Positions 61,399-64,000 of a stretch of 64,000 nucleotides of DNA are shown here, in pieces; position 1 is the stretch's first letter; the number at the start of each line of letters is the position of its first letter. Source of the DNA: Guyparkeria halophila (GTDB taxonomy: Bacteria > Pseudomonadota > Gammaproteobacteria > Halothiobacillales > Halothiobacillaceae); contig NZ_CP140153.1 in assembly GCF_034479635.1 (NCBI RefSeq), positions 2,177,501-2,241,500 of the forward strand, given 5' to 3'. The notes beneath the pieces were generated by a model. The model saw only the letters and a program-made list of their open reading frames with translations, did not search any database and was not told the DNA's origin. The position numbers and the translations under genes are program-made.

Positions 61399-61736
61399 CC
61401 ATCGGCGCCGGACGGGGTGCCGGCGCACCACGCCAAGGGGTCGTATCACCGGGCAGGGGCGATTCGGAACGGCATGCCAGTGGCACGCCATGACCCGGGG
61501 TACCCCGAGCAATGTTTGCCCAGAACGCCTCGCCCGGCAAGGGTGGCATCGGAGTCGCGCCGACCGACATGCCTTCCGCCCGGTCGCGCCCGAGCCTGAC
61601 CGGCAGGCGGCAATCCGGCTCGCCCGTTGCCAGGCCGCCTGTCACTTGCCCACCGGCAGACCGGGACAGCGCGCCCGCCGACCAGATCGACGGAACGCCC
61701 ACCCGCTCAGGCCCCGAAAAAAGCGACAGACAAAGC
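61399..61736. other. Gene-free stretch between the Sel1 protein and rpsI terminator
   Basis: A GC-rich hairpin (gcgccgg, 61405-61411, with 61420-61426) without a T tract lies just after the Sel1 gene and could end its transcript by another route. No convincing gene, promoter or repeat is seen in the remaining ~300 bases; frames here lack ribosome binding sites. Confidence 0.5.
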
Positions 61737-61763
61737 AAAAGCCCCGCACGAGTGCGGGGCTTT
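61737..61763 (-). terminator. Intrinsic terminator after rplM-rpsI
   Basis: On the minus strand a 9-bp stem, gccccgcac (61752-61760 paired with 61741-61749), plus aaa/ttt extension, followed by TTTTGCTTTG. It ends the rplM-rpsI transcript 36 bases after rpsI. Confidence 0.9.
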
Positions 61764-61798
61764 CGAGGTGTCCGGCTCGGGGCCGGAACGACGTTGGA

Positions 61799-62191
61799 TC
61801 AGCGCTTGGAGAACTGTACCGAGCGACGTGCCTTGCGCAGGCCGACCTTCTTACGCTCGACCTGACGAGCGTCACGGGTCACGAAGCCGGCTTCACGCAG
61901 CTTCGGACGGTGTGCTTCGTCATAGTCCATCAGCGCACGGGTCAGACCGTGACGAACGGCACCGGCTTGGCCGCTCGGGCCACCACCAGCAACGGTCGCG
62001 ACCACATCGAACTTGTCGCCCATTTCCAGCAGCTCCAGCGGCTGGCGAACGACCATCTGTGCGGTCTCGCGACCGAAGAAGTCTTCGATGCTCTTGCCGT
62101 TGATGGTGATGTTGCCGGTACCCGGACGCAGGAAGACCCGTGCAGAGGATCTCTTGCGACGACCGGTTCCGTAATTCTGTGTCATTGCCAT
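61799..62191 (-). CDS. rpsI: 30S ribosomal protein S9
   Basis: A 130-aa protein starting [24 protein letters not shown] and ending QFSKR, with [19 protein letters not shown] and the C-terminal [10 protein letters not shown] tail that reaches the P-site tRNA. Length and sequence match E. coli S9. It follows rplM by 12 bases. Confidence 0.98.
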
Positions 62192-62203
62192 GAGTAGTCT
62201 CTC

Positions 62204-62632
62204 TTAGATCTCGAGCGGCTGGGGCTGTTGCGCCTGATGATTGTGCTCGGCGTTGGCGTAGACCTTGAGCTTGGTATACATCTGGCGACCGAGTGCATTC
62301 TTCGGCAGCATCCCCTTGACGGCCAGCTCGATGACGCGCTCCGGGGAACGCTCCATCAGCTTCTCGAAGGTGAAGTGCTTCATGTTGCCGATGAACCCGG
62401 TATGGAAGTGATACATCTTGTCGCTGGCTTTCTTGCCAGTAACTTTGATGTCCTTCGCATTGACGATAACGATGTAATCACCGGTATCGACGTGCGGGGT
62501 GAACTCGGCCTTGTGCTTGCCACGCAGGCGGCGGGCGACCTCGGTGGCCAGACGACCCAGCGTTTTGCCGGATGCATCGATGACGTACCAGTCGCGTTTG
62601 ACCTCGGCCGGCTTGGCGGAATAGGTTTTCAT
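62204..62632 (-). CDS. rplM: 50S ribosomal protein L13
   Basis: A 142-aa protein starting [22 protein letters not shown] with [36 protein letters not shown] and the basic C-terminal [22 protein letters not shown]. First gene of the rplM-rpsI operon. A TATACT-like -10 around 62755 on the minus strand is a likely promoter, giving a leader of ~110 bases that may hold an L13-type control element. Confidence 0.98.
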
Positions 62633-62821
62633 GGATCGACAGCTCCCAAACCAGAAGCGATACATTGATTTCAAGAGGGCGCGAAGTCTACCCGAAGGCA
62701 TCGCACCCCGCAAGGCCGATTTTTCAACCGGCCCGAACGTGGAGAACCGCGGAGTATAAAGCGCATCGGCGCGGAAAGCGAAGGACTTTCCGCATCGGAT
62801 GGCAGTCACGGTATTGCAGAC

Positions 62822-62883
62822 AAAAAAAATGCCGGCAGAAGCCGGCAACAACAAGAACCACCAAAGGAGGATAAGCAATTCAC
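62822..62883 (-). ncRNA. Candidate small RNA (about 62 nt) with anti-Shine-Dalgarno loop and Rho-independent terminator
   Basis: On the minus strand a good promoter (62919-62890) would start RNA near 62883. The RNA has the single-stranded stretch CCTCCTTT (62870-62863), complementary to AAAGGAGG ribosome binding sites. It then forms a perfect 7-bp stem TGCCGGC/GCCGGCA (62847-62841 with 62836-62830, loop of four) followed by eight T residues (62829-62822). The promoter, unpaired CU-rich seed and strong terminator in ~60 nt are the layout of Hfq-type regulatory RNAs. It could also be a terminated leader of rplM, whose start lies 190 bases further on. Confidence 0.55.
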
Positions 62884-62889
62884 AGTATC

Positions 62890-62919
62890 AATATATACTA
62901 ATGATCCACGGGCCGTCAA
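62890..62919 (-). promoter_or_regulatory. Sigma70-type promoter of the candidate small RNA
   Basis: Minus strand TTGACG (62919-62914) and TATATT (62895-62890) with an 18-base spacer, or TATATA (62897-62892) with 16 bases. It is strongly AT-rich against a GC-rich background. It drives transcription toward the terminator at 62822-62847 and away from glcF. Confidence 0.6.
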
Positions 62920-63037
62920 CTCCCTGCGGGAATTTTATTCTCGCCCCCGCCGACCTCGACCCGCGGCGCCCTCGACACCGGCGCGCCAGACACCACCCCG
63001 TCTTGACCGGCCACCCGGCCCGCTGCACTCTTCCGAC

Positions 63038-64000
63038 ATGAACTCGCCCGATCCCATCGCGCACGCGCCCACTCAAACGAATACGCTCGACGAGGCGATC
63101 CGCACGGATGCACTCGACTGCGTGATGTGCGGGATCTGCGTGCCGCACTGCCCCACCTTCTCGCTGACCGACAACGAGGCCGACGGTCCTCGCGGGCGGA
63201 TCAGCCTGTTGCTCGGCATCAGCCAGGGCGAGCTGACGCCGGATGCCGACGTCAGCCGACACCTGGATACCTGCCTGACCTGCCGCGCCTGCGAGACCGT
63301 CTGCCCCTCGGGGGTGGCCTACGGCCGCCTGATCGACAACGGTCGGGCACGCCTGGCCCGGGAATCGGCAATGGCCACGCGCCCGCTCGCCGAGGCACGC
63401 GGTTGGCGCCTGCTGCGCGACCAGCTGCTGACCCGGCGCCGACGCCTGGGCGCCGCCTGGCGGATCTACCGCCTCATGCAGCGCATCGGACTGGGCGGCG
63501 TGGCCCGGCGGCTGGCCGGGCCGGTGGGCCGCGCCCTGCCCCGCCAGCTCACGCAGGCCGCCGTGCGGCAGTCACCCGCGCACCACGCGACGGCGTCCCG
63601 TGGGCGCGTGGGCCTGTTCATTGGCTGCACCGGCGCGGCCATGAACGCCCCCGCGGTGGCCGCCGCCCGCACGGCGATCGCCGCCTTCGGCTACGAACCG
63701 GTCATTCCGAGCGGCCAGGGCTGCTGTGGGGCGATGCATACCCACGGCGGCGAGCCGGAGGCCGGCGCACGCCAGCGCGAGCGCAACGCGGCCGCCTTCA
63801 AGGCGGCGGGCGTCGACGAGGTGATCGTGGTCGGCACGGCCTGCACGGCCGAACTGGGCGGGCTGGAGGCAAGCCACGATCTCGCGGTCCGCGAGATCAC
63901 CGCGTGGCTGCTCGAACGCGAGCCGGCGGAATGGCCGCAGCTTGCCCGCATCGACTACCGCATTGCCCTGCACACCCCCTGCAGCCAGCGCAACCACGTG
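63038..64000 (+). CDS. glcF: Glycolate oxidase iron-sulfur subunit (truncated by window edge)
   Basis: The first 321 codons of GlcF, a 4Fe-4S protein of glycolate dehydrogenase that relays electrons from the GlcD/GlcE flavin subunits to the respiratory chain. Two cluster motifs, CVMCGICVPHCP and CLTCRACETVCPSG, lie in the first 90 residues. A CCG-type motif (SGQGCCGAMHTHGGE) follows near residue 230, and the sequence ends within the second CCG domain (LHTPCSQRNH). In an autotroph it would recycle photorespiratory-type 2-phosphoglycolate. glcD and glcE are not upstream here. Confidence 0.9.
   Translation, partial: MNSPDPIAHAPTQTNTLDEAIRTDALDCVMCGICVPHCPTFSLTDNEADGPRGRISLLLGISQGELTPDADVSRHLDTCLTCRACETVCPSGVAYGRLIDNGRARLARESAMATRPLAEARGWRLLRDQLLTRRRRLGAAWRIYRLMQRIGLGGVARRLAGPVGRALPRQLTQAAVRQSPAHHATASRGRVGLFIGCTGAAMNAPAVAAARTAIAAFGYEPVIPSGQGCCGAMHTHGGEPEAGARQRERNAAAFKAAGVDEVIVVGTACTAELGGLEASHDLAVREITAWLLEREPAEWPQLARIDYRIALHTPCSQRNHV

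Follow-up and report, generated by a model that had tools for sequence, protein, structure and literature searches.

A candidate anti-Shine-Dalgarno small RNA gene upstream of rplM in Guyparkeria halophila with probable relatives across Gammaproteobacteria

Introduction

Most bacterial small RNAs can be followed no further than a genus or a family. The Rfam family RF02278, named 'Betaproteobacteria toxic small RNA', comprises the Burkholderia cenocepacia 'double-hairpin RNAs' ncS03, ncS05, ncS27 and ncS62, bdhR1, and S17 of Bordetella pertussis. Burkholderia ncS27 and Bordetella S17 are reported to act at ribosome binding sites (PMC5688073, PMC11722255). Overexpression of ncS27 is described there as slowing growth, with the reverse complement of its CU-rich part having the opposite effect, and 55–80% of the predicted pairings of ncS27-type RNAs fall at start regions (PMC5688073). 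S17 is reported to be Hfq-dependent; in its absence 92 genes rise, of which 70 have ribosome sites complementary to it. A reporter test showed direct repression of one target, and S17 had no toxic effect in E. coli in the conditions tested (PMC11722255).

Here we analyse a 64,000-nt stretch of the Guyparkeria halophila genome (the window), in which a sequence-only reading had proposed that a small RNA with an exposed anti-Shine-Dalgarno sequence is encoded between ribosomal protein genes and glcF. That proposal held in every test run. We conclude, with a probability of about 0.78, that the locus is a stand-alone gene for a trans-acting small RNA related, as a divergent form from Gammaproteobacteria, to the anti-Shine-Dalgarno double-hairpin RNAs of RF02278.

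Anatomy of the locus

The gap between rplM (62204–62632, minus strand; start at 62632) and a divergent glcF-like gene for an Fe–S subunit (63038–64000, plus strand; start at 63038), which is cut by the window end, spans 405 bases. The promoter, RNA of about 62 nt, exposed anti-Shine-Dalgarno sequence and U8 terminator that the sequence-only reading had described are all present in this gap; its description was right, and the strand, which it did not give, is established here as the minus strand. A sigma-70-type promoter (TTGACG-18 nt-TATATT; 62890–62919, minus strand), the ATTAG block of which is kept across the genus and the sister genus, is the sole consensus promoter of this type found in 61500–64000, where shuffled sequences lead one to expect 0.2. 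With its 5′ end placed from the position of this promoter, the predicted RNA would be about 62 nt long (62822–62883, minus strand) and would end in an intrinsic terminator with a 7-bp stem and U8 (62822–62847, minus strand), read as TGCCGGC-TTCT-GCCGGCA and then T8 from 62847 to 62822. Terminator-like sites number three in 61500–64000 against 1.5 expected, so the terminator on its own proves nothing. A terminator-like site with 13 pairs lies at 61765–61736 on the minus strand, downstream of rpsI.

Folding of the predicted 62-nt RNA yields two hairpins and an energy of −19.7 kcal/mol (z = −5.25), with most of the stability coming from the terminator; the 5′ part folded alone gives z = −1.65. 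In the first hairpin (62855–62881, minus strand), folding pairs GAAUUGCU with GGUGGUUC around the loop UAUCCUCCUUU, which is mostly open along its whole length (unpaired probability 0.70–1.0 per base). The anti-Shine-Dalgarno seed CCUCCUUU (62863–62870, minus strand) sits within this 11-nt loop, and each seed base has an unpaired probability of 0.86–1.0. The linker and the 5′ arm of the terminator (62841–62859, minus strand) contain GGUUCUUGUUGUUGCCGGC.

Conservation in Halothiobacillaceae

A DNA search of 40 genomes matched 19, and a model built from 18 copies (R1) and run on 27 genomes of the order found matches in 20: all 11 Guyparkeria genomes, our own included, 9 of 10 genomes of the sister genus, Halothiobacillus, and none of the six genomes of two others. 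All ten other genomes of the genus keep the element, and a 15-mer surrounding the seed is present in 78 of 369 gammaproteobacterial genomes, more than chance would give. The glcF-like gene is retained upstream of the small RNA gene in the Halothiobacillaceae copies. Downstream, rplM is retained in most of them and replaced in two loci, L016 and L019, by an acs-like and a mutM-like gene, respectively (names from readings of the open reading frames), neither with an adjoining rplM.

In the Halothiobacillus copies (L012–L015 and L017–L019) the CCUCC of the seed is lost and now reads TTTCC or TTC, with CTTTGGTGGTTCT retained. CCUCC is thus not indispensable, and in this family the 3′ half of the core may be the most strongly constrained part. 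The pairs of the first hairpin hardly vary among the Halothiobacillaceae copies and show no covariation support; given this near-invariance, covariation speaks neither for nor against the hairpin. Indels between genera shift the frame, which speaks against reading the element as the gene of a small protein.

Spread across Gammaproteobacteria

The exact 15-mer ATCCTCCTTTGGTGG occurs in the 78 genomes of the 369 sampled across Gammaproteobacteria, and the reversed control occurs in none among the matches listed. R1 also reached distant loci in which ATCCTCCTTTGGTGG stands ahead of a terminator. Using the inner 14-mer, we examined 90 sites, 10 in Guyparkeria and 80 elsewhere, and a T-run lies 3′ of the motif in 76 of the 80 extra-genus sites. 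One site (L159, genome G318) has the 14-mer without a terminator, and we take it as a chance occurrence of the 14-mer; it was dropped from the alignment, termed A2, and is still counted in the 80 sites and 78 genomes. Also absent from the resulting list of 75 sites are three with no T-run, from G171 (one) and G308 (two), and a fourth truncated at a contig end (G389); A2 holds 63 of the 75, the 12 omitted being mostly near-duplicates. Of 28 stretches from an earlier search, 13 come from unrelated taxa and are presumed chance matches; one, L065, is among those compared with Rfam below.

Most copies share a common build, consisting of a 5′ hairpin of variable sequence, a C/U-rich anti-Shine-Dalgarno stretch and a covarying terminator. 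Across the 63 copies of A2 the 15-mer AUCCUCCUUUGGUGG (62858–62872 in the window, minus strand) shows no variation, a 15-of-15 invariance qualified by the copies having been picked by the inner 14-mer, and the terminator covaries at 7 of 7 pairs, with 43 double-change cells against 5.7 in shuffled alignments. The 5′ hairpin adjoining the motif beats mononucleotide shuffles (z < −1) in 66 of 79 copies, with a mean z of −2.65, and its sequences are unlike one another; a hairpin kept with changed sequence points to an RNA. Seed openness is likewise common to the copies (mean unpaired probability 0.84 across 75), and TATTAG, part of the presumed promoter, stands at −85 to −25 in 33 of 78 copies, compared with a shuffled rate of 3%. 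In distant copies the stem closing the loop is formed by GGUGG and the C/U-rich stretch that precedes the loop, and its letters are so nearly invariant that covariation cannot test the stem. The Guyparkeria copy is without a separate 5′ hairpin, and its loop is closed by AAUUGCU:GGUGGUU instead.

At 52 of the 80 extra-genus sites rplM lies 135–742 nt downstream, on the same strand in 52 of 52. At the other 28, rplM is absent from the flank examined (256–3,014 nt downstream); the downstream genes vary, and several lie on the opposite strand, converging on the motif. Together, the build shared by most copies and the sites without rplM argue for an independent small RNA gene and against an attenuator of rplM.

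One genome, G308, carries three tandem motif copies about 100–120 nt apart (L186, G308:C3:139789–144024), with a T-run of at least 5 in one of the three. Beside another copy of the small RNA gene lies a TwoAYGGAY RNA (RF01731; L106:1153–1269). In E. coli, a 34-nt consensus found no match among 20,395 records by blastn, a query this short being liable to miss a diverged copy. Among the papers listed by a literature search that included the motif letters, none was recognised as treating the motif in Gammaproteobacteria.

Kinship with RF02278

To relate the copies to described families we used a second model, R2, composed of gammaproteobacterial copies only, with Guyparkeria left out. R2 recognises the window copy at E = 5.4e-11 and has matches in 155 of 369 gammaproteobacterial genomes at E ≤ 1e-4 and in 37 of 398 genomes across the phylum; this census is an upper figure, since some of the phylum matches are PrrF (L265), SorX (L257) or terminators covering model positions 61–100 only. 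Six R2 matches are listed for G327 and four for G094. When 20 R2 loci were compared with Rfam, 11 (L245 and ten others) proved to be RF02278 at its own curated cut-off of 50 bits, one was SorX and one PrrF. In five of these eleven RF02278 loci (L246, L247, L251, L255 and L264), rplM-rpsI follows downstream in the same orientation. In the same five, RNase P RNA, the RF02278 RNA and rplM-rpsI all lie within about 3 kb.

In the reverse direction, the RF02278 model scores 22–45 bits at the motif, below its cut-off, in 17 of 17 tested gammaproteobacterial loci outside Halothiobacillaceae, and in a separate comparison of 18 loci, including the presumed chance match L065, none reached the cut-off. 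The window copy gave no match to RF02278 up to E = 10, and L001 and L013 gave none at E values up to 5. The build and position that they have in common, and the matches that each model gives to copies of the other kind, argue for a common descent of the gammaproteobacterial RNAs and RF02278; the gammaproteobacterial copies seem to be relatives of the RF02278 RNAs that had gone unrecognised. As the window copy fails the RF02278 model and is without the 5′ C/U-rich site of that family, we treat it as a variant rather than a member.

Function and candidate targets

By analogy with the relatives described in Betaproteobacteria (PMC5688073, PMC11722255), the Guyparkeria RNA should cover ribosome sites, and it is only through these relatives that action on many mRNAs is suggested. 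A gene for Hfq is present in the same genome; across the family, 26 of 27 genomes have one. Transcription of the small RNA would start at a promoter of its own and stop at a terminator of its own; the RNA would expose CCUCCUUU in its hairpin loop and would probably pair, with Hfq, to a set of mRNAs at their ribosome binding sites, lowering their translation. From transcription and size to Hfq binding, repression and the identity of targets, we infer these properties of the predicted RNA.

Target prediction at ribosome sites, which the sequence-only reading had also put forward, was negative or weak at the genome scale. A scan of the own genome allowing up to 3 mismatches to the complement found 26 sites, one of them the gene itself, against 74 for the control, and so gives no sign of selected targets. 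The best placed site precedes the ATG of a dsrE-like gene for an exported protein (L188:1023–1496, minus strand) and reads AACCAC-UC-AAGGAGGAU; five close genomes retain it with minor differences at most, and in others it is altered. The predicted duplex at this start reaches −30.3 kcal/mol, and 3 of 55 start regions from the window, chosen by a rough selection rule, do better. We regard the dsrE-like gene as a candidate target and a lead, its pairing energy not being exceptional.

A second possible partner is itself an RNA. The second match of the first search in the own genome (G000:C1:273204–273240) falls inside a CsrB/RsmZ-like stretch upstream of queA (L002:1124–1790; G000:C1 about 272827–273493), which is found in 10 of 11 genomes of the genus. 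This stretch has 33 GGA on the plus strand, compared with 10 on the minus strand and 16.6 in shuffled sequence, and the Rfam CsrB model scores it at only 14 bits. A segment of the CsrB-like RNA is perfectly complementary to GGUUCUUGUUGUUGCCGGC of the small RNA of the same genome; complementarity between the CsrB-like plus strand and the small RNA extends over 14–19 nt in nine of ten genomes and 10 nt in the tenth, and mononucleotide shuffles give means of 7.5–7.8 and maxima of 10–13. As the segment is simple (AACAACAAG) and conservation extends over the entire CsrB-like RNA, pairing between the two RNAs is a lead and no more.

Alternative explanations

The position of the element invites the reading that it is a transcription attenuator or regulatory leader of rplM-rpsI, with the terminator setting how much transcription reaches rplM, and the same-strand placement of 52 of the 80 extra-genus sites upstream of rplM, like that of five RF02278 loci, is what such a leader would produce. 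The 28 extra-genus sites without rplM in the flank, several with a convergent gene downstream, and the loci L016 and L019 do not fit it. Nor does the local arrangement: between the small RNA terminator and rplM lies TATACTCCGCGGTTC (62744–62758, minus strand), identical in nine of nine genus genomes compared and comprising a −10 element and a G+C-rich discriminator of what is probably a separate rplM promoter, and this block is invariant even though genomes of the genus differ by more than 100 nt in the spacing from terminator to rplM. The small RNA gene and rplM are most simply separate units. Inspection by eye revealed no alternative pairing that would undo the terminator, and the C/U loop, rather than the terminator, is the most conserved part. 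The sequence-only reading had itself named conservation confined to the terminator, as in an rplM attenuator, as the outcome that would count against it; instead, seed, 5′ hairpin and promoter block are also kept, and 28 of the 80 extra-genus sites have no rplM in the flank examined. We therefore hold attenuation of rplM to be very unlikely.

The extreme constancy of the core raises a different thought, that the RNA is a decoy, a copy of the 3′ end of 16S rRNA that would hold the translation machinery or a protein and would not seek out particular mRNAs by pairing. Invariance of 15 of 15 bases in 63 copies, even allowing for their selection by the inner 14-mer, goes far beyond the needs of a short seed, and no excess emerged from the target scan. 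The core also contains the CCUCC of 16S rRNA tails; a pattern search for the 3′ end of the own 16S gave no match, which leaves its likeness to the seed a presumed one. Against a decoy stand the loss of CCUCC in Halothiobacillus and the action at ribosome binding sites reported for Bordetella S17 and Burkholderia ncS27 (PMC11722255, PMC5688073), and we consider it improbable. Elements acting as DNA only, namely a divergent promoter region and a terminator insulating rplM and glcF, would explain why in Halothiobacillaceae the element stays beside glcF even without rplM. The motif occurs in families with different neighbours, and its 5′ hairpin is kept despite changed sequence, which makes a purely DNA-level role hardly credible.

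The stand-alone trans-acting small RNA gene remains the best explanation, one that draws on the computed anatomy, conservation, common build, occurrence apart from rplM and RF02278 kinship. A bolder extension, which we think doubtful, is that a single anti-Shine-Dalgarno small RNA predates the split of Beta- and Gammaproteobacteria, lay ancestrally upstream of rplM-rpsI and serves as a general translation brake in a large proportion of them. In Guyparkeria, the CsrB-like RNA would in turn hold it along the 14–19 perfectly complementary nt, so that control of translation would be linked to the Csr network.

Comparison with known small RNAs

Membership in RyhB, RseX, PrrF or ncS16 was rejected, with the matches of the window far below the cut-offs. 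RyhB, RseX and PrrF share no seed with the window copy, and their weak matches (E = 1.1–7.4) arise from a layout common to all, with a linker, a G+C-rich hairpin and a U-run. In Alphaproteobacteria, the Cuckoo RNAs (CcsR) have two stem-loops, CCUCC in the first loop and tandem copies, and occupy a different genomic setting. SorX of Rhodobacter (RF02784) is alike in that one R2 locus, L257, is SorX at cut-off (77.4 bits), with a CUCCAUCCUCC stretch and a terminator; it differs in having CUCCCUGUUGG in place of CUCCUUUGGUGG.

RF02278 is the closest described family. Its RNAs and that of the window both have two hairpins, the first with a C/U-rich loop and the second a terminator with a U-run, and with the gammaproteobacterial copies RF02278 shares an anti-Shine-Dalgarno loop closed by GGUGG. 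Most of these copies differ from RF02278 in carrying an extra 5′ hairpin, and CUCCA or CUCCAA directly precedes TCCTCC in 68 of the 80 extra-genus sites. The 5′ C/U-rich single-stranded site before the first stem corresponds to Site 1 of S17 (PMC11722255); the window copy, unlike RF02278, is without this CUCCUCC site, one of two C/U-rich sites, and has GAAUUGCUUAU where it would stand. Were the kinship true, what has been found in Burkholderia and Bordetella, namely slower growth and a general repression acting at ribosome sites, would become testable predictions for many little-studied Gammaproteobacteria, and RF02278 would require a broader model. It also raises the question of why these genes lie so often beside rplM-rpsI. 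Dozens of gammaproteobacterial families retain a 15-nt core and a build in three parts, which link them to an Rfam family named for Betaproteobacteria.
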